Shown: piece by piece, positions 10,677-61,726 of the stretch
Layout of the letters: each line of letters begins with the position of its first letter
Numbering within the stretch: the stretch's first letter is position 1
Assembly: GCA_008802785.1 (NCBI GenBank)
Contig: VUYT01000004.1
Location: 248,001 to 312,000 of the forward strand
DNA length: 64,000 nucleotides
From: Symmetrospora coprosmae
Lineage: Eukaryota > Basidiomycota > Cystobasidiomycetes > Symmetrosporaceae
Reading direction: 5' to 3'
Notes under the pieces: model-generated
The model's database searches: none
Seen by the model: only the letters and a program-made list of their open reading frames with translations
Told to the model about the DNA's origin: nothing
Program-made: the position numbers and the translations under genes

Positions 10677-10916
10677 GTTGGCCGAAGCCAACGAGTGAGG
10701 CATGAGGATTCCATAGATGAGGATTACATAGGGTGCGCGCGTGATTCCGGTGGTTGCCTTGGTCCTGTTGTTGTACAGTACGCAGTTTGGCCGGTGACAC
10801 AAGAGCGCTGGTCGCGAGGTCGATCGACCTCTTTCGCCAGAAAGCGAGCACGAGACTTTCTTTGTCTGACGAACAGCTTTCGTAGATCAGTATACAGCAA
10901 GACAGCAGCAGCCAGC

Positions 10917-13900
10917 ATGGCTTCAGCCGCAGTAGATGCACCTTCGACCTCGCAGCTGCACAATGGTAGCTCGAGCGGTGCAGCCAGTGCTGAGGACGTT
11001 CAGGCAGCGCGCCTGAAGGCTCTGCAGGAGCAGATTGCAGCTCGCAAGCGGAAGCGCGAGTCTGCAGCCAGCGAGGACGTCAAGGGCAAAGGACGGGCAG
11101 TGACATTCAGCGAGGTCGAGCTGGACAGCGGCACGGGCGCTGCACCAGCCTCGGATGCAGCGGCGGCGGCAGCGCCAGTCTCCATCCTCAAGCCGGTACT
11201 CAGGACGAGCCAGGAGGACGCCTTCCGCGATGCCAAAGCCAGCGTGCCCAAGGCGCCCGAGAAGAAGAAGACAGTCGCAAAGAAGCGCTACCTGAAGGCC
11301 AAGCTCGAGCGGCGCAAGGCGAAGAAGCGCGCCGACAAGGACCCGTCTGCCGACGGAGCCGACAGCGAAGCACAGGGCAGTGATGACGCCGGCGAAGGCA
11401 ATGCTTCGGTGGATGCTGCGGCTGCTGTAGAGCAGCGTAAACTTGCCAAGAGAGCGAAGCGCGACGAGAGGAATGCACGCAAGCGGGGAGAGCTGCCTGC
11501 CGTCGAAGAGGGAGTGATGACAGACAGCGCACCAGGCCCGGAACAGGCCGATGATACGACCATGGTGGACAAAGAGGCACGCAAAACACAGCGCAAAGCG
11601 AAGAAGGAGGCCAAGCGGTCGGCTCTGGCTGCCGGCGAGACGTCCATGAACGCCGACGCGTCAAGCCTGATGGACCTGGACGGCTTGATATCGACTGAGC
11701 CAGGCTCTGCAGAGCTCTTGTTGCAGTCAGAGCCTCTGGTAGTAGCAGAGCCTCTCTCGCGACGAGAGCTAAAACAGCAAGCATTGCTTGAGGAGGCCAA
11801 AGCGATTCAGGACAAGGCGAACAAGAAGGCGGCCAAAGCAGCCCGCAAAGCCAAATTCGCGTCCGAGGCGCTGGGACACGCTGTAGGAGAACAAGCGGCG
11901 GGCAAGGAGGAGGAGCTTCCCCCAACGCAGAAGGACTCGCTGCCGAGATTCCCCGCGCCCGTTAAGCCCACCGCACCGAGCCAGCGCGAGCTCGACGATC
12001 TCGCCATTTCCAGCGAACTGCGGTATGCAGTCGTTGTCGATCAGTCCAGGGCAGTTGCGTTGCCCGACTATCAGGAGAGCAGCTCGCTGGCAGCGAAGCT
12101 GTCCGCTAGCACGCTGGAACGCCTGAGGGAAATGCAGATTGAGAGCCTCTTTGCCGTGCAAGCAGCTGTCCTACCGATCTTGCTGGAGAACCGCAAATTG
12201 TACTCGCCCAGGTCTCCTTCGAGGGATCTGTGCGTCAGTGCACCGACCGGATCAGGCAAGACGCTTGGCTATGTCATTCCGATGGTAGAGGTGCGTTTTT
12301 GTGGGCTTGTGTGGCTTGGCTCGGCTCCTGGGGTCTGACAGTAACGATTGTTATGGTATTTCGCAGATCTTGGGGAAGCGCACCATCACGCGCCTGCGGG
12401 GACTGGTCGTCCTGCCAACCCGAGACCTGGTCCACCAGGTGCGCGAGGTGTTCGAGCAGTTCTCGCATGGCACGGGGCTGCGGATAGGTACCGCGACAGG
12501 ACAGCATTCCTTCAGCCACGAGCAGAGCACGCTCGTCGACGAAAGCGAAGCCGATCTGCTCGGCGGGTCGAGCCGGGTAGACATCCTCATCGCTACGCCC
12601 GGTCGCCTGATGGATCACCTGAAGGCTACGCCCGGGTTCACACTGCAGCACCTGCGCTTCTTGGTCATTGACGAGGCGGATAGGCTGTTGAACCAGTCGT
12701 TCAATGACTGGCTCAAGACGGTCCTCAACCACATCGAGCGGACGTCTGTCAGGGAGCACGATCTCGACGAGGAAGATGACCAGAGCAGCGCCAACCGCAG
12801 AAACAGCAGGGCGGACGCCGTGGCTCCTGCTCTCATGGAGTCAAGCTTTGCGTGCATGCGGACGGACCTCGATGCCAAGCTACGCGGCTCCGTAAGTTCG
12901 CTCTTTGCGTGCATGTCTAATGTCGTCAGGGAGGTCACAGACTGATCTACCTTTGGCACTGGATTCAGACTCAAAAGCTCCTCTTCTCGGCAACACTGAC
13001 GCGAGATCCTGCTCGGGTCGCAGCTTTGCGTCTGAACAAGCCCGTCTACCTGGCAGTCACGGAGCCACGCAGCAAGCAGGCACGTCCAGAATCCGTCACG
13101 ATGAACGGCATCTTGGCCGATGCGGAAATGGCGGACGCGACGGTGGTCGATGGAGGCGATGCGTCCGATGACGAGGACGAGCAGGATCTGCTGGACGCCG
13201 AGAGGCGCTTTGCCCTTCCCAGCACGCTCAGCGAGAGCATGATTGTCACGTCGCCCGCGAGCAAGCCGCTCATCCTCTTGCACCTCCTGTACACGCTCTC
13301 GCTGCAGAAGACGCTGGCATTCACCAAGTCGGTCGAATCGGCCGCGAGACTTGTGTCGCTGCTCGAGTTCTTCTCGGCCGAGTACGCAAAGACCACCACG
13401 CTCGCGGGTGACGCTCGGACAATCACGGCCGCAAACTACTCGAGCGATCTCACGCCGGGCAAGCGGAGAGAGGTCATCGAGCGTTTCAAGAGCGGCGAGG
13501 TACAGGTGTGAGTCCCTGTGTCGTCTCGCTCATCCTGTGTGCGAAGCGGAACCTCCTGACACTCGGTGCCACTTCCGCCCTGCACAGGCTCGTCTGCTCG
13601 GACCTCGTCGCGCGCGGTATGGACATCTCTGGCGTCGAGCACGTCATCAACTATGACGTGCCCGTCGACATGCGCAAGTACGTGCACCGCGTGGGACGGA
13701 CTGCGCGGGCGGGCAAGGCGGGGCAGGCGTGGTCGCTCGTCGAGAAGCAGGAGGCGAGTTACTTCAAGAATCTCCTTCGCGACGCGGGCCGCTTCGACAA
13801 GGTCAAGAAGATCAAGGTGGCAGAGCGCGAGACGGAGAAGTTCGAGGAGGCGTACGGGGTGAGTCAACGTGCTTCACGATGCTCTGTGTGACGTGGCGTG

Positions 13901-33019: not shown

Positions 33020-36000
33020 TTATAGCTCGTCCTCGTCGGTGAAGACCTCCTCGCCACGCTTGCGGCGCTGTCAAGAGCAACGAAGACAATTAGCACAGAT
33101 TGGCAACGGTGCAGTCACCAGTTCGGAGAACGAACCGCCATTCGCTCTTTCTTCTTCTTGCGTGCCTCTGCGCTTGTAAGCTTCTTGACCTTCTTGGCCT
33201 GAGGAAGAGAAGGCAAAAGAGCAAAGTCAGCCGAAGTTCTCTATGACGAAATCCACCTGTCTCGAGTTTGAAAAGCCCGTCTGGCAAGACCAACAGATTC
33301 GAGCTTGTTCCCCATAGCATCGAACTTGTCTTCCTCGTCTTCTTTGCCCTGGTCGATACGGGGTCCGGAGCCCTGGCCCTCAACCCAGTTGTGGCCAGAC
33401 GCCACAAGGTAACCGTCCTTCATAGCCCAGATTTCCTTGCAGATGCTCTCGGAGAACTCTCGGGAGTGCGTGCTGTGTGTAGTCGAGAAGGCATCAGCAT
33501 TTTCGTTGATGTTATTTCGAAGTCGGTGGTGGCAAAATCCGATGTCCGGCGGGACGAGAAGAGTGGAAAACTCACATGACTAGGACACCACCCTCGAAGT
33601 CCTGCAGCGACTTGATGAGTGCGGCAAGCGACTCTCGGTCGAGGTAGTTCGTCGGCTCGTCGAGAATGACGACGTGCGGACGACGCCATGTGGCGGCGGC
33701 GAGGACGACCTTGACCTTCTGTCCACCGGAGAGACCACGCATGGTGTTGTGGGTGACGAACTCGGCCTCGAGACCAAAGTCGGCCATGTGCTGCTCGATC
33801 TCCTTTCGGACGAGCGGTCGGAGCAGACCAAGGCGCTGAGCCTCTCGAGTGTCGATCTCGAGAATCTTCTTCTCGAAACCTCGCTTCATGAGCTCGTCTC
33901 GCGACATCCAGATGTTCTCGGACGACGAGAGCGCCTTGAACGAGATCTCGTACTCGTACGACTGCTTGAGCTTCTTTCGGGCGACCAGCTCGTCAATGAC
34001 GCGCTTGACACCCTCGACGACAACGATACCACCCTGCTTCATCTTCTCGGCCTCCTCAGCAGAGATCTTGCGCGTGTCCTTGTTGAGCTCCTCAATGTCC
34101 TCTCCGGTCTGGTACCGCTGGAGAAGGTACTCGAGCGGCGTCTTGTCGAGGTGGTGGTCAATGTGGTGGAAGGCGTGCTGGGCGACGTAGCCAATGACCA
34201 AGTTCGGGTGCTTCCAGACCTCTCCCTGCTGTGCCTCGGTCTCTCCGACAAGGAGCTTGACGAGGGTCGACTTGCCGGAACCGTTGGGTCCGAGAACGGC
34301 GACTCGCGACGAGAGCGAGACCTGGAGGGTGATGTCGTAGAGCTGGGGTGCGGGCGAGCCAGGGTACTGGAAGCCGACCTTTCGCATCTTGAGCAGCGAC
34401 TTCTCCTTGGTCTTGACACCCTCGAGAAGAGGGGGCTCGGGGAACTTGAACTGGTAGTCCTCGGCCGGGTCGAGCTCGTAGTAGGCACGGGCAGACGGGA
34501 CGGCCTTGACGAAGGCCTCGAGATTACCGCGGTAGCGCTTAACCTTGAATCGGTCGAGGTGGAGAATGTCGGTGACGGTTCGGTTGAGGAAGTCAGAGTC
34601 GTGCGAGACAATGATGGAAGTGCAGGTGGTGAGCGAGGTGAGGTAGTTGATGAGCCACGTGACGTTGAGGACATCCAAGTGGTTCGTGGGCTCGTCGAGG
34701 AGGAGAATGTCGGCCTTGAAGAGAATGGCTCGGGCAAGCGCGAGCTTCATCTTCCAGCCTCCAGAGAGCGAGCCAATCGAGTGCTGCTGCCTCTCCGTGG
34801 AGAAACCGACAGTCTCGAGGGTCTCGGCGACCTCAGCCTTCTCAGCCTGGATACGCTTGTCCGAAAGGATGAAGTTGAGAATGGTGGTGTCCTCCTCGGA
34901 TCCGTCGATGTCGTGCTCGACGTAGAAGGTTCGGACCTCTTCCGGCGACGGGAAGCCCTCGACCTGACCGTTCTGGATGGCACGCATGAGCGTAGACTTG
35001 CCGGAACCGTTTCGGCCACAGAGGCCGTAGCGGTGACCTCGCTTGAGGCGGAGAGTGGCGGTGTTCAGGAGAATCTTGGCACCGTACGCAAGCGAGAAGG
35101 TACAGTTGCAAAGATCCTCTCCCTCCTCGTCGTCCTCGTTGGCCTCGACCTCGGCTCCGGCCTCCTTTGCGGACTTCTCGAGGATGTCTCGGACGATCGG
35201 CTGCGCCTTGGATGCCTCGGGGACACCGAGGTTGATGTAAGGGACGAGAGCAGTCTCCCACTCGACGAGCTCGTAGTTGCGGGCGTTGAGCAGGTTGGCG
35301 ACAATGGTAGAGATGTAGTGGATGAGGGGCGACTCCTTGGTCATTGCGGTCTGCGAGACGGCCTGGCACGCCTTGAGGACATAGGCGGTAACATCCTCGG
35401 GCTTGGTGACTCGCTCAGCGGGGATCTCGGATCCGTCACCCTCGATCTTTCCGACCTCGCGGAGAGTCTTGATGGCCTTGCCAACGACACCTCGCGCCTC
35501 TGGGTCGGCAACGGTGTCCTCGATCTTGATGAGCTTGGGGAGCAGGTTGGGAAGGAAAGGTCGGACGGTGTGCTCGTTGTCGACAAGCTTGGCCATGTTG
35601 TCCTGTACACAAGCACCAGATGATTAGCCGAAGCCCTGCCAAATCATGCTTCCACGTCAAGAACGCACCGTGATGACGGCAATCTTACGCCTGGTAGCGG
35701 TAAGACGCTCGTCGAGACCTCGGGAGAGCAGAGGAACCATCAGAGAGAGGGTAGGCGAGTCGACCTCGGAGACGAAGGTGGTGGCAGCGAGGAGCTGAAT
35801 CGTCTTTACGGTCTCCTCAACAGGGTTCTCGAGCGCCTTGAGGAGGGCGGGGATGAACTTCTCGATATCCTTGTTGACGACGAGCGAAGTCGTCGTCTTG
35901 AGCGTGGCACGGGCAGCCTTCTTGACGTCGGCCTTGGTGTCCCAGATGGCACCACCGAGGACGGGAATGGAGACGGGAGTGGCACGGGCCATCTGTGCGG

Positions 36001-36723
36001 GTGCCGAGCTGATGAGCTGGTCCATGATCTCGAGGGATCCAGTTTTGACCTGCCACTTTCCGGCGGTCTTGATCTCGTGGAGGATGAGCTCGAGGAGCTG
36101 AGGCGCAGCCCACGGGGTCATGACGCGCGTGAACTCCTTGACGGCGGCAACGGCAGCCGCTCGGACTTGCTTCTCCTTGTCGGCAAAAGTCTCGGAGATG
36201 ATGTGGGGAAGGACCTTCTCGAACATGAAGGGCTCGACAGCCTGTCCAACACCCTGCTGGCAGAGGATGGTGATGAGCTGACATGCACCCTCTCGTGCGA
36301 CGGCGTTTTTCTTGTCGTTGATGCCCTTGAGGATGGCATCGGAGAGGCCGAGGCGAACGAAAGCCTGGGGACCCTCCATCTTGACGAGGTTGGCGAGCTC
36401 GGCAGCGGCGTGCTCTCGTGCCATGCCCTGTAGCGCATAGAGAAGCGGGTTCGTCCGAAATGGTCAGATTTTTCTGATTCGGAATCGCACAAGAGCCACG
36501 CCAGGCCTTTGCGCAGCGACGTGCAGGGACAGCAGCAACTCACGTCAGGATTGGTCAGGAGCGAGTGGATGTCGACCTTGGCCTCGCCGTGGGCGTTGCC
36601 AGCCTGCTCGGCTTTGGCAGCGCTCGAGCCATCGAGGGCGACAGTCGCGGCAGGGACCTTGACGGGGGTGGACACGGCCGTCTTTGCCGTCTCGGAGGCC
36701 TTCTGTGCGGCGGGTGCAGGCAT
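33020..36723 (-). CDS. YEF3: Translation elongation factor 3 (EF-3, ABCF-type ATPase)
   Basis: Fungal ribosome-bound ATPase that releases E-site tRNA during elongation. Six exons on the minus strand: 36723-36544, 36427-35669, 35602-33576, 33472-33295, 33198-33136 and 33067-33020, 1,084 residues. The N-terminal HEAT repeats (about 60-330) precede ABC domain 1 (GRNGSGKSTLMR, LSGGWKMKLALARA, LLLDEPTNHLD) and ABC domain 2 (GPNGSGKSTLVKLL, LSGGQKVKVVLAAA, VILDEPTNYLD), the latter carrying the chromodomain-like insert before its signature motif. EDEEDKFDAMGNK and a Lys-rich tail (ARKKKKERMARRKRG) match the ribosome-binding C-terminus. Codon use is strongly biased, as expected for a highly expressed gene. 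The fourth donor is GTTGGT. The presence of EF-3 marks the genome as fungal. Confidence 0.97.
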
Positions 36724-46100: not shown

Positions 46101-46909
46101 ACCACCAAGCCGTCTTGACAATCTCGAGGTAGCGGGCAGCTGCCTGGTCCGCCTTGTAGGCTTTTCGAGCGGATTGAGCGAGGGCGATGTCGACGCAGAC
46201 CATCGACTGTACGCTGTTCGTCGTTGACGGTGCAAGCAGCGCATCGGCGCTGGTGCCGGTGAATGACCGCGTGGTGGGAAAGAGCGTCTGCATGTGCAGT
46301 GGAGCTGGAGGTGAGGGTAGGGCAGTCTCAGCTTGAGATAGCTAGGAACGGCGTTGCACATCCACTGGCACAAAGCCGGTCACTCGCACCTTGCTTGCTG
46401 CTCGCGTGAATGTCGGAGGCTCTCTGCAGACATGCCTGTGCTTCGCTGGCCCTGTCCAGGCGGATGCACGCCTCCGCGTACACGTGCCCGCATCTCAGGC
46501 TGGCCTCGGGCGCGAGGGCGGACGGCTGATGCTGCTGGGCGTTGATGAGGGCCGCGAAAGGCCCTCCTCCTGCAGTGGCCGTGGTCGCACCAGGATACGA
46601 GCTCCATGAGCCCGGGACGACGGACGTGCTCCGGAGCAGCTCGAGGGCCAGCCTGGGCCGTCCTGACCGCAGGAGGGCGAGCGAGTGGTAGAAGACGGCC
46701 TCTTCGCAGGTTGGCAGGAGGCACAGCAGGCGCTCCGAGAGGAAGAGAGCCGAGTCGTGCAGTCCAAGGCTGAGGGTGAGGGTGATGAGGCGCAGGAGCA
46801 GCGCGAGGATGTCCGGTGAGCGCGCCGGGTCCGCAGGGAGGGTCGGCTGAGGCAGGTAGGAGGCCGACGAGGCGGCAGTTGCAGCTGCAGCTGCAGCTGC
46901 AGGCGGCAT
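43104..46909 (-). CDS. CDC27: Anaphase-promoting complex subunit Cdc27/Apc3
   Basis: TPR scaffold of the APC/C ubiquitin ligase that binds activator C-termini. Five exons on the minus strand: 46909-46390, 46331-46068, 46003-44151, 44064-43703 and 43638-43104, 1,177 residues. N-terminal TPR-like helices (HDSALFLSERLLCLLPTCEE, ARKAYKADQAAARYLEIV) precede a 450-residue disordered linker rich in Ser/Gly/Ala. The C-terminal TPR array is clear: ARYENEQCVRAVLALEKRQ, LSPYTLSSIDVYSTLLWH, LPQAWIATGNVFSHLEDH, HEATTLEEWETALGFFREA, FGLGNVYMKTGKHRLAEYHF. A short acidic tail follows. The start at 46909 begins with a GCA/GCT-encoded Ala run ([13 protein letters not shown]); an additional upstream exon cannot be excluded because the first N-terminal TPR helix seems short. 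Confidence 0.93.
46868..46903 (-). repeat. GCAGCT repeat encoding N-terminal poly-Ala of Cdc27
   Basis: Tandem CAGCTG-type hexamers coding for alanines 4-10 of the predicted protein. Such a run near the start codon is slippage-prone and could differ between strains. Confidence 0.6.
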
Positions 46910-47783: not shown

Positions 47784-48079
47784 ATGCGCTCGTTTTGGAG
47801 GAGATTCTGGCTAGGCTCTGTACTCGCGGTCCTCGTACTGCTCCTGCTCCTAGCCTGGTTCTACGATACGGCCAATACGCCCGCAGGCGGAGCGGGAGTC
47901 ATCGACGATAAGGCTCTATCTACAGCGTACGTACAAGACTGGCTCTGCGGGCTAAACCTTCATGAGGGCGGAGTTACAGCAATGCGTATCCTGAGCTTCC
48001 GGGAGGGATGGCAGTCTCGCTGGGACAGACGTTAGCAGCGGCGCATCTGCTAGAAGGTATAGACAGCCTGCGGGTCTAG
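47784..48079 (+). CDS. Small single-pass membrane protein (80 aa), unknown
   Basis: Two exons (47784-47926 and 47980-48079) joined in phase 2 by a GTACGT donor and TTACAG acceptor. The product starts MRSFWRRFWLGSVLAVLVLL and continues with a hydrophobic helix ending AWFYDTA, then a soluble part including ANAYPELPGGMAVSLGQ and TLAAAHLLEGIDSLRV. Basic residues before the helix predict a cytosolic or matrix N-terminus. If unspliced, the frame would end at 48035 with a less plausible tail. I do not recognise it; small mitochondrial inner-membrane or ER proteins look like this. It lies 183 bp before the amidase-Mim1 gene on the same strand. Confidence 0.5.
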
Positions 48080-48261
48080 CATATTTGATCAGTCGTGCAG
48101 CATATACCATGCAAACGCACTCCGCTTGAGGAGTATTGCGTATCTCGGGTTGATCTGTCTGTACTCGAGTATTAAGCGTCTGTCGCCACCTCTGCCCTTG
48201 CCGTTCACGTGCCTCTGACGTGCGGCTCGACCCTTCTCGCTTCTGCACACTTACGTCGACC

Positions 48262-49890
48262 ATGGCAGTCTCGCCTGCGCCTCAGCCTGCGCGCTACACT
48301 GCCTTCTACTGCGAGGAGAATATCTACCACCTCGTCGCATCGCTCCAGTCATCGCTCGCCGAGGACAGCAGCGGGACACGCGTGTATGCCGTCTTCATCT
48401 CGAATGCACAGCGCAAGAGCCTCCTCTTCCATCAGAAGGCGGCGGACCCGGAGCAGGGCTACGTGATATGGGACTATCACGTCGTCGCCGTCACCGTGAC
48501 GCCCCGCGCCGGATCTGCTGGCGCGGGCGCAGAGCCGGACAACGTCGTGAGGGTGTTTGACCCGGACTCCAACCTGGACGAGTTCGAGGGTGGCCCGCAG
48601 GACGGCCATAGTGACGGCGCGCCGAACGGCTTCGATTTTGATGGTGCGTCATGCATGCGGGTATGCTTCAGGTCGGACGAGACCTACCGCTCGCTGACAT
48701 CCCGCCTCCGCTCGTGCGCCCAGACTACGTACAAGAAACGTTCCGGCCGGACCTCTACGCGCCCGGCGGCGTCATTCGCACCATCTTCGAGCTCGACGAG
48801 CCGTGCGTGGCCTTACGACACTGCGATGGATTCTCGGCTGGCACTATTTGACACCGCTCTCTCCCTTGTTGGTTGATGCAGGCGCTTCCGAGTGGTCCCG
48901 GCCAACAAGTTTCTGAAGAACTTCGCCTCGGACCGGTCGCACATGCTGCTCGAGTCCGCGTCTCATTGCAGCGTCGCGTCAGCTTCGCCGCCAGCCTTAC
49001 AATACTTCAAGCCCATCCCCACATGGGATGCCATTGTCGGCGAGGGCGCGCGGAGTAGACGCGAGACCAACAACCTTTTCTCGCACTGGCTAGACATGGG
49101 CGATGGACAGCAGGCTGGCCGAGCAAGCTCCAGCCAGGAAGAGGAGCCCTTCGGCAGAGTCTTTAGCCTGGAGAGCTTCGCAGGCAGGAGTGACTGGACC
49201 AGGGCCGCTTGGACGGGCCAGTCGGAGCGCCAACACGCATCCGCCGATCACCATGCCGAGGGCCACGACAAGATGGCGCGGCCAGTGTATGCAGCACAGT
49301 CCTCTCCATTACTCTCCCAGCCAGTCCCGCTCAGCATCTCCGCTTCACCGCACGAGGAGTCTGCCTCGGAAAAGGCCGCACACCTGGCCAAAAAGGCTGA
49401 AAGGACGGTGCAGCGGGCGCTGGTACCCGTTGTGCCACAGGAAGTCAGGGAGGCAGAATCAAGCAACGGTCGCTGGCCTTCGTATCTCCCGCAACGGCAG
49501 CTGGTTATTTCCATTTTCGTCAGCTTGGGCATCAACTTTGCCATACCATTCGTGAATGGCGTCATGCTGGGTGAGTCGCGAGAAACGCGCACGCTGGCTA
49601 CGCTGCCGCGGCTAACGGTTTGTTCTTCCGCACCTCGCGCTGCTTCGACAGGCTTTGGCGAGATCTTTGCCCGAGACTGGTTCGCACCCTGGGTCGGCCT
49701 GACCTCCTGGTCGACATCGCACTACCGTCGCGCAGCCTCGACGGCGCCGCACAGGATCGGCATACGGGCTGCGCCTCATCCAAACCCGCATCCTGAGCAA
49801 AGAGGTGGAAAGGGAGAAGTGCCCGGTCATCCTGCTGCGAAATCCATTGTCGAAACCGCGGCGGAGCAGGTCGTGGCTGGGTCGGTCTGA
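48262..49890 (+). CDS. NTAQ1: Protein N-terminal glutamine amidohydrolase fused in frame to a Mim1/TOM13 segment
   Basis: Four exons: 48262-48643, 48682-48802, 48882-49570 and 49652-49890, 476 residues. The N-terminal part (1 to about 270) matches the Nt-Gln amidase of the Arg/N-degron pathway, which converts N-terminal Gln to Glu: YCEENIY (Cys17), VIWDYHVV (His73), FDPDSNL (Asp100), then YVQETFRPDLYAPGG and VVPANKFLKNFASDRSHM and the C-terminal block FGRVFSLESF. With no stop codon the frame runs on through a polar linker to VPVVPQEVRE and a membrane segment SLGINFAIPFVNGVMLG spliced to FGEIFARDW, which is the Mim1/TOM13 signature of the mitochondrial outer membrane import complex. An internal ATG at 49273 could start a separate Mim1. 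The first intron is short (38 nt). Confidence 0.85.
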
Positions 49891-50141
49891 TGCTCGACAT
49901 ACAGGATGTTGCATGTAGCTGTACAGATGCTGCCTAGAATCCCTCAGTCTTGCCTGCAGTGCTTGCTTGCGCTGTTTCGGTCCCTCTGCTGCTCTGCACC
50001 GGTCCTCGTCAGGCACAAGTGATCGACTGCTGCTCGCCTCGGTCGTCATCCTGCTTGCTGCTTGCTGCTGCTGCGCGTCTTGTGTCTGGTCTCGCACTCA
50101 CTCCGTCCACCCATCCGTCCAGACACGCCGCCTATCTCGCC

Positions 50142-51901
50142 ATGGCCGACACACCGAAAGCACAGGCGCAGGAGGAGAAGAACAAGCACGACGTGGGGAC
50201 GCTGCACAACCCCGTTGGCGGTCAGTCAGGGAAGGGGCCATTCGGAGCTCGAGCGCACGCAGCGAAGTGGACGCAGCGAAGCGCAACTACAAACTGACAC
50301 TGCGTAAACTCTCCCAACGTGTGCATTCTATGTACCTCCTTCTCTCTGTCTCTGCCTGCTCCGCTCACCCGCAGACAAGAACTCCGGTCGAGGTGAGTTG
50401 CCTGCCGGAACAGCGCACCGGGCTCGCGCGCATTGTTACATGCAGCACAGCTACATACAGCTCGCGCACAGCAGCTCGGAACTCGGGAAGCTCTAGCTGA
50501 GTGACTTCCTTCCCTCCTCGTGTGTGCGCAACAGTATGGCCCCTCTTCCTCGCCATTGTCATCGGGTCGCTCGCCTGGTTCTCCCAGGATGCAGAGCTGC
50601 GGCGCGGACTCGGCCAGATCACCGGGTTCCACGCAATCGAGCCCATCATTGAGGAGGTCATCAACCGCGAGTTCATGATGACGGTCCACGGGACGTGGAG
50701 CAGCAGCTGCACCCAGCGCGTCCTCGTCGCGGCCCTCGAGAAGGACCTTGAGTACGAGCTCAAGCTCGTCAACATGACGGCTGTACGTGAAGGCCGCGCG
50801 CAATCCAGTGGGTTGTGGTATTCAGGGAAGCTGATTGTGGTGCATCCCCGTAACTGCTGTCCTTCCGGGGGCCACGCCTCGTCACCAGAAACAGCACAAG
50901 ACTCCCGAGCATCTCCGCATGCAGCCTTTCGGACAGGTGCCCGTGCTCGAGATTGACGAGCAGTCGTTCATCTACGAGAGCCGGGCCATTGCCAACTACT
51001 TCGAGCGGAGATACCCTACACGGGGCCAGTGAGTCGCGTCGCCATCGTCCTGGCATGACCGTATTGCTGAACAGCTTGCGCTCCCGTCGCCTGCAGATCC
51101 TGTCAGTGCAGCAGCATTCGGGAGCTGGGCGAGACAACCGTTTGGTCTGCTGACGCGTCCTCGCATTCCGATCCGTAGTCGCCGTGAACGGCCTCATTGG
51201 CAATGTCTATTACGACCAGGCCATCAGCGTCGAAGCATTCGATTTCGGTGCGTCCGGTCTTTGTCTCGCGTTACTTCGATATGCAAAAAGCTGAGCTTAC
51301 ACTCTGCCCTTCCACGGTGCACAATCAGATCCGACTGCAGCTGCCGTGTACCGCGAGGGTGTCGCCCTCCCCGCGCGAGGCCTCCCCGTGAACGAGGCGG
51401 TTCTGAATGCCAGCCTCGCGGCCTTTGCCGCCAAGCTCGACGGTTACGAGAGCATCCTTGCCACTGCGCAGGGCGGAGAGGGCAAGTACCTCGCTGGCCA
51501 GAATCTCACTCTCGTCGACCTGTTCCACCTCCCGCTCGGGCAGAAGCTCGTCAGCAACGGTCTGGGTCACGACCTGACAGACGAGAAGAAGCGGCCGCAT
51601 GTTGCAAAGTGAGCGGCACATTCTGGTTTCTCGTGTCCAGCGCTGAGTGTGGGTTGCTTCTTCCCTGAATGGCAGATGGTGGAAAGACATTAGCTCTCGC
51701 AAGAGCTGGCAGGCAGTCCTCAAGGACGTTACGGCCTACGAGGAGCAGCAGAAGAAGGAAGCTGACGAGAGGAATGAACAGGCCGAGAGAGAGGCACAGG
51801 AGAAGATCAGGCAGGCCGAGCTGGCCAAGGAGGCAGAGAGGGCCTTTCACCAGGCGAAAGATGTAGCGGACGATGTGGCGGCACGGGCGGAGAAGGCGTG
51901 A
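50142..51901 (+). CDS. Membrane-anchored glutathione S-transferase-like protein
   Basis: Eight exons: 50142-50220, 50375-50392, 50535-50782, 50889-51028, 51107-51144, 51179-51247, 51329-51608 and 51676-51901, 365 residues. A polar 30-residue N-terminus leads into a transmembrane helix (VWPLFLAIVIGSLAWF), a stem, then the GST thioredoxin-like half starting TVHGTWSSSCTQRVLVAALE, with PFGQVPVLEI and ESRAIANYFERRYP as the glutathione-binding Ser/Arg region. The helical half has GKYLAGQNLTLVDLFHLP. The last 60 residues are a charged, probably coiled, Glu/Ala/Lys/Arg helix. Exon 2 is 18 nt. An internal start at MMTVHG would give a soluble enzyme, so two isoforms are possible. Phi-like class is suggested by the SSC near the first helix; the substrate is unknown. 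Confidence 0.85.
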
Positions 51902-56928: not shown

Positions 56929-59900
56929 TCACACAAAGACCCACCGGCTCCCTACGCGCTTCTGCGTCGCCTTGATGGGCGCAAGCTTGAGCATCTCGAA
57001 GTCGGCAAACTTGGGGACCACAAAGCACACTCGCTCCTGCGCCGACCCGTCCGCGGCCGTCTTGGTCGTTGCGACTGCACCCGCGCTGGCGCTTGCAGGG
57101 TTCTCACCGGGTGCAGCCTCGAGCACACGGGAGAATGTGCACAGCGGCTTTCCCAACGTGGGCAACCATGCCGTGCTGATGCGCGTAACGGCTACAGACA
57201 AGCAAGTAACGCAAAGAAGGCAGGTGCAATGAGCATACGCAGAGAAGCATGCTGCAGCCCGCGCTGTCGGTGTGACTCACCCCGAATAAACACCCGGCTC
57301 GTCCGGACCAGCTCCTGGTAGACGACGCATTCGGGTGGGGAAGAGTGGAAAAGAATGCTCGAAGGGTGGATGAAGACGTCCTCGTCGACTCCGATCGCGC
57401 GGTAGGCCACTCCACGCGTCGAAGCGTACTTGCTGCTGTCGCCTTCCGAGGGCGCAACCAGGTCTTTGCGGATGGCGACCTGGTCGATGAAGGCGGCGGT
57501 CAGCAGCTGCCGTATGACCTTGAGCTGCGGGTGTTCAGCAGGAAGAAGCGGGGCCGTCAGCAAGGCTCCTCCTCAGATGCCGCGCTTACCTGTGATTGTA
57601 ACTCACCTGGGTATCATTTGGCGGCCGCAGCTTTGGGTCAAAGCCCGCGTCGAGTCCAGGGAAATTTGACTGCACGATCCTGCTGATCTGCGCCCGCAGT
57701 TTGTGGATCTCTTGCATTGCCTATGCAGATGCAAGAACGCATCACGTTAATCATCAATCATCTGCAGATCAGACTCCACCAGCAGCCATGCTTACCTTTG
57801 CTCTCACATAGCTCTTCTCGCAGAACTTGACAGACCCGCCATCGTACTCGTACGCACCGACGACGCTGAGCATCTTGAAGATGTCGCTGCTCGCTTTGCC
57901 CAGGGCCGCATGCTGCTGCTGCACCGCAAAGAAGCTGCGCCGCTGCACTTTACGCAGCTCGCGCGCTTTGACCTCCTCGCTCCTGATGTGCTCCAGCTCG
58001 GCGCCATTCTCGGCGTCGTGGCCCTGGCCAGCCTTGTCATCGTCATCTCCCCCAAAGCCCAGACTCTCAGGCCTGAGGAAAGGGTCCCCTACGGATAGAG
58101 CCGATACCACCGCAATGATGTAAGGCAGGCAGCCGTGCTGCTGCCCAACGACAAGCATCTTGGAGAACCTGGGCGAGAGCGGGAAGAGCGACATTGCATT
58201 GCCGAGCTCGGTGATGCGTGCCGGGGACGTCGTCCGGTTCCCGCTCACAACGGGCGCCGTGAGTGCACCGAGATTGACGAGAATCTTTTCGGCCTTTTGC
58301 AGCGCAGCACGGTCCGGCGGCGTCGGGAAGGGAAAGTTGATGACTTGGTCAATGTTCATGCTCTTCATCTGCAGCATGATGCCCTCGATCGGCATGCGCA
58401 GGATCTCCGGGGCCGTGTGCTGTGCGAACTGCGTCTCGAAGATGTTGGACGAGTACAGACGGTAGCAGTGCCCCGGGCCGGTACGACCTGCTCGCCCTGC
58501 TCGCTGGGACGCCGAAGCCTTCGAGATCCAGGATACGTCAAAGGATTGTATCCCTGACGCTGTGTCGTAGTTGCGCTAGAAGTGCCAAAATAGGGTCAGT
58601 GGCGTTTACAGCCGCAGCGGTGCCCTTGCACTTACTTCTTTGGCGAGTCCACAATCGACAACGTATTTGATATTGGGGATCGTCAGGGACGTTTCGGCAA
58701 CGTTTGTTGCAATGACTACAAGGCGGTGACCTTCGGGTGGGGCCCTGAAGACGCGCATCTGCTTGTCCGTGGGCAGCAACGAGTAAAGCGGGAGGATATG
58801 CATCGGAACTGAGAGGGGAACACGCACACGTTGCGTTAGCTTTCGCGGATGCACGCATCTACAGGTCGGACGCACCGTCTGACTCCTCCTCCCTGTCTGC
58901 GAAGAGGGCATCCGGGTCGTCCTCGTACTCTTCGTCCGAATCCAAGGCGTCCGGATCTTCGATAGGCTCCTCAGCTTCGATGCCATCGTCGACATCGCCG
59001 GCGAGGTCTCGAGGCTCGTAGCCAAGATCCACTTCCTCGGCTTCAACATCGCCTATAGAAAAGCACAGTGAGCTCTGTGCAGCATGCTTGTGGAGTGCCA
59101 TCCGCCTCACCTTGCTTTGAGCTGATCGCAGCTACTTTTGCGTCTTCCCCAATTGCCACGGCCGTATCTCCTCCCTCTGGCTCCTCCTTACCCTTGCGCC
59201 AGCTTTTTGAGCCCATGGCGATCCGCTCTCTCCGCGCCATTCTCTCGCCAACGGCCTGTGCTCCGAAGCGCTTCTCGAGGCGCTTGCAAAGCGTTGTAAT
59301 CTCGTTCTGCCCAGTCAGGAAGACAAGTACGCCTCCACCAGGAAGCCGAGCGTGGATCTTGCTGACCTTCTTGTACGCTTCGTCGAGATAGTCTGGCCGT
59401 GTCTTGCGATTAAAGTGCATCGTAACGGGATGCTGTCGAGCAGCCACGTTGATGAGCGGTGGCGGCGACTTGAACAAGCTTGTGTTTTCGGTGAAGTCCG
59501 TAGCGCGCAAGGTGGCTGACATAATTATCAAGCGCAGGGGCTGAAGTTCGGGAGGGGCCGCATCAGCGTGCGCGCAAGATCAGAAGCTCCGGGCACTAAG
59601 CCGCTCACCTTCACGCCTTGCTTGCCTTCTCGCCACATGTCTTCGCGCAACCTCACAACGCGGCTCAATGTGCCGATCAAGACATCCGTGTTGACGCTAC
59701 GTTCGTGTGCTTCATCCACAATGACGACACTGTAACGCGATAGGAGGAAGTCGTCCGCCAGCTCGCGGAGCAGAACTCCATCCGTTATGAACTTGATGGC
59801 CGTGGTCGGGGAGGTAGTGGCGTCGTATCGGATTTGGTAGGATACCCTGCTTGGCGGCAGGCTCAACTCCTCCCCAACACGGGTCGCCATGGACATTGCT

Positions 59901-61726
59901 GCCACCCGGCGCGGCTGGGTGATGCCAATCATGCCTGGATTGTCAGAGCCGGGGCCGCCAAAGCCAGCTTCGTAGAGGAACTGCGGGACTTGCGTCGTCT
60001 TGCCGCTTCCCGTCTCTCCACAGAGTACCACTACGCTGTGCAACCGGATTGCCTCCATGATCGTGTCTTCTTCTGCGAGAATAGGCAGCTGCAAGCGTTT
60101 TTCTTGCACCTCTTCCGACCGCTGCACTGCAATAACCGGCTGCCGTTTCTTGGCTGCTGGTAAAGCCGACCCATTTGCGCCGTTCCTTTCATTCGCACTT
60201 GTATGCGCAGACGGCAGGTCAATGAGGGTATTTGTTGGCAGCACGAGCTCTTCTCCCAAAGGTCCTCGCATTGATGCGGAAGTCCTGCCGGACGGCTTAC
60301 GCGGCACTACTCCCGCTGGCGCGTTCGAGACGAGCGGTTCTCCTTCTTCGGTACGACTGTCTGCGAGGCCCAGCTGATGTCGTGCCCAATCCTTGAAGCT
60401 GCCTCGCTGACGCTGCCCTGGCTCACGGGTAGTTGTGGAATTTGCACCGGCTGACTCCGTTTCGTCGTCTTCCAGGCCCTCACTTTCCAGTCCTGGCGCG
60501 TCATCGCCATCATCCTTAATTCCTCCCCACTCTTCCTCGTCTTCGAGCTTATGTTCAGCGTCCGACTCTTCTGCTGACGACCCGTCTTCTTGGCCATTGC
60601 CTTCTTCATCCTCGTCACTAGCCCCGTTTCCTGACTTCTCGGGATCCGTGTCAAATTCCGAGTCCGATGAGTCGAAGGAATCCTCCGAATCCGACGAGGG
60701 GAAGTCCTGCGGCTTGATGAGTTTTCCCATTTTGCGCTGTATGGAAAGCATCATGGGCTCACTGATCGGACTTCCGGCTCGCACGGACCGCGGTTGACGT
60801 ACAATATACTGCTGTTTGGGCCTCCTCTGCACTACGACAGGGACGACGCCGCCCGCAAGGCCGCTCCCGACAGTTACAGGAGCTGAGCTTGTTTTTGGAA
60901 TGCTTGTACTCGGAGCGGCTGTGTCCTTGTCCGCACTGACCTCTGCTCCATTGGGTGCTGGCAGGTTGCTTGCAGAAACTGCTTCCCGCTTGTGGATCGT
61001 CTCCGTGCGCTCTCCAGACGGACCGGCCTCGGGCGGGGTATCCTCGGCTGCATCTCCATCCACGTCGTCAGAGCTGCCTTCCTCGTCGTCCGAATGATAG
61101 CCCTTCTTCTTGTTTGCCACGATGTCGAAGACTCGCTGGCGCTTGCGGTCACCCAGGGTCGTAACGCGGTCCAGCTTCTCCTGGTTCGTATGAAACTGCT
61201 TCGAGCCAAGTGTAGATGACGGGCGTAGTTGAAGCGGGTTCTGCATCGTCTCCTGTGAAGCGCTGTATTGCGCCAGCGCGGGGATACACGTGAGTGCCGG
61301 CTCTCAAGTACTCGTTACAGCTCCGCAGCGGCCGCTCCTGGTCCTGGCAAACTCACGCCAAAGACTTGAAGAGTTCTGTCCGTCGATCTTTCTGCAGCTT
61401 CTTCTCTACGTAATTGTCCATTCGCTTTCGCTTCTTGGACGACATCTTGCCTTGAGAAGCGGCCTGACACGCCCTCGCCACGAAGAGGCAGCGTCAGCTT
61501 CCAGAGGCGCCAACGGCGAGCTGCCGGGACGCCAGCTCACCTGCTCTTGGATCTCACGCTGCTCCCTGGCTTTTGCCTTCTCTGCTGCTGTCCGCGGAAT
61601 GATGATTTCTGCATCTCCAGCATTCTCAGGCTGCTCATCCTGAACCCTTGCCTTCTTCTTGCCCTCTCTCCTAGCCTGGAGCTGCTCCTCCCGCGCCTTG
61701 TTGAAGCGTGGGCGTGTGTGTCCCAT
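56929..61726 (-). CDS. ECM16: DEAH-box RNA helicase Dhr1/Ecm16 (DHX37 type)
   Basis: Nucleolar helicase that dismantles U3 snoRNA from pre-ribosomes in 18S rRNA maturation. Ten exons on the minus strand: 61726-61541, 61445-61357, 61262-59609, 59540-59111, 59052-58876, 58808-58636, 58575-57796, 57720-57607, 57524-57281 and 57191-56929, 1,369 residues. It opens [20 protein letters not shown] and has [19 protein letters not shown], the Dhr1 N-terminal basic block. Motifs: [15 protein letters not shown] (I), [14 protein letters not shown] (II), [12 protein letters not shown] (III), LPTDKQM and [12 protein letters not shown] (V region), [20 protein letters not shown] (VI). The ratchet/HA2 and OB regions follow, ending [17 protein letters not shown]. 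Acidic linkers occur before the helicase core and within RecA2. Confidence 0.94.

Follow-up and report, generated by a model that had tools for sequence, protein, structure and literature searches.

A spliced fungal reading frame that joins an NTAQ1-type amidase domain to a Mim1/TOM13-type membrane domain

Within a 64-kb window, by which we mean the whole stretch of DNA analysed, a fungal gene holds an N-terminal amidase domain and a C-terminal Mim1/TOM13 domain in one spliced frame, and the fused frame and the two domains noticed in the preliminary description of this sequence are hereby confirmed. We consider it probable that this one gene gives one protein of 476 amino acids, in which an NTAQ1-type amidase is followed by a polar linker of approximately 90 residues and then by a Mim1/TOM13 membrane core that would anchor the amidase at the cytosolic face. 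We predict that the full fused product is made. The features of the gene are collected in Table 1.

Table 1. Features of the fused gene, in positions of the window
Feature	Coordinates	Strand	Comment
Exon 1	48262..48643	+	Start codon; N-terminal half of the amidase with Cys17, His73 and Asp100
Intron 1	48644..48681	+	38 nt; donor GTGCGT, acceptor GAG; removal gives the conserved amidase frame
Exon 2	48682..48802	+	Middle part of the amidase
Intron 2	48803..48881	+	79 nt; GTGCGT...CAG; holds the TGA of the straight reading
Exon 3	48882..49570	+	C-terminal part of the amidase, linker and membrane helix, uninterrupted
Linker	49180..49455	+	Residues 268-359, between the two Pfam matches
Internal in-frame ATG (Met299)	49273..49275	+	Could start a separate Mim1-like product; considered less likely
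TOM13/Mim1 core	49456..49677	+	Residues 360-406; hydrophobic helix, GxxxG and FGEIFARD; split by intron 3
Intron 3	49571..49651	+	81 nt; GTGAGT...CAG; inside the TOM13 core
Exon 4	49652..49890	+	End of the TOM13 core, C-terminal tail and stop

The frame from 48262 to 49890 had been described as free of stops, and this is so once three introns are removed, the four joined exons then containing no stop codon at all. Read straight through, however, frame 1 is interrupted by a TGA at 48874-48876 (codon 205), so the open frame of the preliminary description exists in the spliced form only. Intron 3 is supported by the domain search, since the TOM13 match rises on splicing from 18.5 bits (in a 3000-aa translation, and below the cut-off of 25) to 38.7 bits. 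The weakest point of the gene model is where precisely intron 1 begins and ends, because this intron is short, has a GAG acceptor and was placed by choice so as to restore the conserved amidase frame.

A Pfam search with the spliced protein bore out the presence of an NTAQ1 domain in the N-terminal part, residues 12-267 matching the Nt_Gln_amidase family (PF09764) over positions 1-180 of a 184-position profile with 126 bits (curated cut-off 27, E 1.7e-36). This family and the TOM13 family (PF08219) were the sole ones listed at E values up to 1. The residues Cys17, His73 and Asp100, which we take to be the NTAQ1 catalytic triad and whose codons start at 48310, 48478 and 48559 respectively, are present as had been claimed; all 22 rows of a bacterial alignment carry the same three residues and the same WDYHV block. 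These rows comprise the 20 best of the loci from 38 family-bearing genomes together with the loci L001 and L002, L002 and L009 sharing one genome. The sequence of the domain thus predicts an NTAQ1-type N-terminal glutamine amidase whose triad is intact.

Comparison of the protein with PDB chains by phmmer gave 15 sequences at E values up to 1, the best being 4w79 (E 5.7e-14), on which Cys17 and His73 fall at positions 28 and 81 of the NTAQ1 chain by manual count on the alignment; PMC10318531 identifies 4W79 as the human enzyme. The likeness to NTAQ1 lies in the near-complete profile match, the triad and the blocks YCEEN, WDYHVV and NFASDRSHM. In contrast, the 15 PDB chains are 202-205 aa long and leave no room for a membrane part, whereas the fungal domain continues into a linker and a helix. 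The fungal domain is also longer than that of the 22 bacterial rows in four places, namely residues 73-100 (27 compared with a median of 15), 102-148 (46 compared with 17), 189-214 (25 compared with 12) and 234-259 (25 compared with 12).

The Nt-Gln amidase family was found in 38 of the 282 genomes of Minicystis's phylum, and two bacterial relatives, L001 and L002, recovered by a scan of genome contigs match residues 11-189 and 7-219, i.e. the amidase part of the fungal protein. Scans of viral contigs found no relatives. Among the amidase loci of Minicystis's phylum, some lie in long stop-to-stop frames (579 aa in L015 and 515 aa in L022), which may represent fusions or nothing more than open frames.

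The C-terminal segment had been assigned to the Mim1/TOM13 type, and the assignment holds for the core of the family alone: residues 360-406 match PF08219 over profile positions 21-67 of 84, with a score of 38.7 bits above the curated cut-off of 25 (E 9.6e-10). There is a single clear hydrophobic segment in the protein, starting at residue 374, with a Kyte-Doolittle maximum of 1.99 at 374-375, and all 19-residue windows that reach at least 1.6 start within 374-381. Yeast Mim1 is a small protein that stands alone, as does Mim1 in other fungi, and it is a subunit of the MIM complex. The fungal fusion shares with it the hydrophobic helix core, the GxxxG motif and the FGEIFAR block, but it bears an enzyme domain on the would-be cytosolic side, and its frame extends upstream into the amidase instead of standing alone. 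We therefore class the segment as the Mim1-type domain of a fusion and not as a Mim1 protein. The GxxxG motif is GVMLG, starting at residue 394 at the C-terminal end of the hydrophobic segment; in yeast Mim1 this motif is predicted to lie where the helix faces the intermembrane space, and mutating it impairs oligomerization, as stated in PMC13254594. Mim1 is described as fungi-specific in an extract of PMC6010339. A tblastn search (E up to 1) found no further copy of TOM13 or the amidase in the window besides the fused gene, and neither the 2 genomes nor the 14 controls that were searched gave a TOM13 match, a result that does not show absence.

The joint between the two domains lies within exon 3, and from 48882 the fused frame runs without a stop until 49888, whereas over the stretch from there to 49900 the other two plus-strand frames are broken by 6 and 5 stops. 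In the linker region, residues 273-376 have a high content of Ala, Ser, Glu and Pro. A search for an intron between the two halves showed that none of the 24 GT sites in 48882-49470 fits GTRNGT and that one, at 49287, fits the weaker GTRNG. Coding character was assessed with a codon score whose training set was seven Pfam-matched frames of the window (the matches of two, 10677-12335 and 59531-61303, lie slightly below their curated cut-offs); of 125 held-out windows of 27 codons, it assigns 108 to the correct frame. In all 14 codon-score windows starting from 48862 to 49642 the fused frame ranks first among the three plus-strand frames. The linker at 49192-49272 scores 0.084, for which the held-out coding mean is 0.116 and the off-frame mean -0.275, and in the flanks at 48064-48261 and 49891-50141 no open 27-codon window reaches this score (37 and 119 open windows respectively, of 117 and 170 in total, overlapping). 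Minus-strand frames outscore the fused frame in the windows at 49522 and 49582, both of which include intron 3, and draw level in the window at 49642. Further along, at 49702 and 49762, the score of the fused frame drops below zero and another plus-strand frame exceeds it, so that the C-terminal tail is weakly supported.

The same data bear on an alternative that we regard as unlikely, in which an error of sequencing or assembly conceals the true end of the amidase and the locus consists of two ordinary neighbouring genes. Just past the conserved amidase end FSLESF, where an ordinary amidase would end, the mod-0 frame has a TGA at 49191, and a slip of one base before 49191 would produce an ordinary amidase with a Mim1 gene some 80 nt further on. 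The linker on its own is compatible with such an arrangement, its coding signal being non-significant: 11.5% of 5000 shuffles of 49192-49272 are open and reach the observed score (19.0% of the open ones), and for 49171-49272 the figures are 4.9% and 10.4% respectively. However, the longest single-base run in 49157-49272 is 3, and the fused frame scores best of the three plus-strand frames over 49192-49272, the other two giving -0.041 and -0.278. Moreover, the two genes would be merely ~80 nt apart, which is short for a 3' end and a promoter, and the composition of this interval is not leader-like.

Leader composition also counts in judging the internal ATG at 49273, for which the preliminary description had left two arrangements side by side, an anchored amidase or a second protein started from this codon. 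The second arrangement would amount to two overlapping genes, with a promoter inside the amidase gene giving a short Mim1 from 49273 and a long transcript giving the fusion or little. It would agree with the small and separate Mim1 of other fungi; the start context of Met299 is fair (AAGATGG), and the protein from Met299 would have 178 aa and a TOM13 match of 40.6 bits. Against it, the 80 nt upstream of 49273 contain 0.45 C+T and 0.09 T, compared with 0.69 and 0.26 at both 48262 and 50142, a comparison that rests on these two starts, the latter being our own reading of where the next gene begins. The value of 0.45 falls in the range of 0.35-0.64 found for gene-internal 80-mers. An out-of-frame ATG at 49253, 20 nt before 49273, lies in the path of scanning ribosomes, with more ATGs at 49023-49103, and upstream of 49273 the frame is still without an amidase stop. 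As 49273 has no pyrimidine-rich leader and is preceded by an out-of-frame ATG, a single fusion is likelier than a separate Mim1; we hold the overlapping genes to be rather improbable, and of the two arrangements the single anchored amidase is the better supported.

Two further readings accept the fused frame but would add a soluble amidase. In the first, which seems to us very unlikely, alternative splicing at a weak donor at 49287 would give a helix-less amidase besides the fusion, and hence a dual location. This donor, GTATGC, is the sole GTRNG site in 48882-49470; it sits within what would be the Mim1 portion and, if used, could yield a soluble amidase. For intron lengths of 35-200 nt there are 14 possible acceptors; splicing to 10 of them would delete the helix and end the protein at 327-392 residues, and splicing to the other 4 would retain it. 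All three introns of the gene model, however, carry GTGNGT donors, and none of the six pairings of 49287 with a CAG or TAG acceptor shows a branch-site-like motif (the branch-site scan covered donors in 49080-49470 with CAG or TAG acceptors, and a wider donor scan covered 48882-49470 with any AG). In the second, the whole fusion would be translated and then cut in the linker into a soluble amidase and a normal Mim1. The length of the linker and its Ala/Ser/Glu/Pro-rich composition suggest that it may be exposed, but we know of no cleavage site in it, and we give this reading little credence.

Some neighbouring features of the window were noted as well. The gene that follows, at 50142-50956 with an 18-nt micro-exon at 50375-50392, begins with a short tail and a hydrophobic segment that lead, in frame and without a stop, into the apparent start of a glutathione S-transferase; GST_N_2 matches with 17.7 bits, below its cut-off of 25, and GST_N slightly further on with 31.7 bits, above its cut-off. 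As read from the sequence, 50142-50956 is possibly a second membrane-enzyme fusion adjoining the first. On the minus strand, a family match to anaphase-promoting complex subunit 3 lies at 46625-46762 (31.3 bits, cut-off 27.2), and a frame for elongation factor 3, which is known from fungi, lies at 33575-36463; this frame and the fungi-specific Mim1 both accord with a fungal source of the DNA. Opposite the latter, a plus-strand frame of 679 codons at 33584-35623 is free of stops, for which strong codon bias is the most likely cause. The window yielded no tRNA and no tandem repeat relevant to the fused gene.

Returning to the single anchored protein, which is the reading that we prefer, its mode of action can be proposed from the known topology of yeast Mim1, which has one outer-membrane span with the N-terminus in the cytosol (in the same extract of PMC6010339). 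The Mim1 helix would be inserted in the outer membrane of the mitochondria so that its N-terminal flank stays in the cytosol, and the amidase would thereby be held at their cytosolic face. In that position it might act on protein fragments close to the surface of mitochondria, deamidating an N-terminal Gln to Glu. The resulting Glu would be open to arginylation by Ate1, after which Ubr1-type ubiquitin ligases would come in. The helix, for its part, may still contribute to the MIM insertase. The anchoring and the link to import are thus suggested by analogy with Mim1, and an amidase at this site would widen the set of substrates to putative Gln-ended fragments. Passages of PMC8189435 state that Ate1 and Ubr1 localize in the cytosol and that in yeast they target the mitochondrial protein Mcr1 after processing by Imp1, and its authors deem a wider role of Ubr1 in the quality control of mitochondrial import likely. 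In the same passages, processed Mcr1 exposes Glu at its N-terminus; as this form already starts with Glu, Mcr1 needs no amidase, which counts against the proposed role. We found no description in the open-access literature of the amidase paired with Mim1, TOM13 or the outer membrane, and in those parts of open-access texts that cite PF08219 or PF09764 the amidase family is named and no fusion is shown.

A comparison may also be drawn with Nta1, which to our knowledge is not of the NTAQ1 family and has no connection known to us with a MIM subunit. Nta1 likewise deamidates an N-terminal Gln, after which arginylation and Ubr1 come into play, but it handles both Asn and Gln (according to the passages of PMC8189435). 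A natural fusion of the amidase with a MIM-type subunit would, if true, be a genetic hint that both meet at the outer membrane. Fusions are often read as evidence of cooperation between separate partners, and the fused gene offers one protein with which such a meeting of the amidase and MIM at the outer membrane may be tested.
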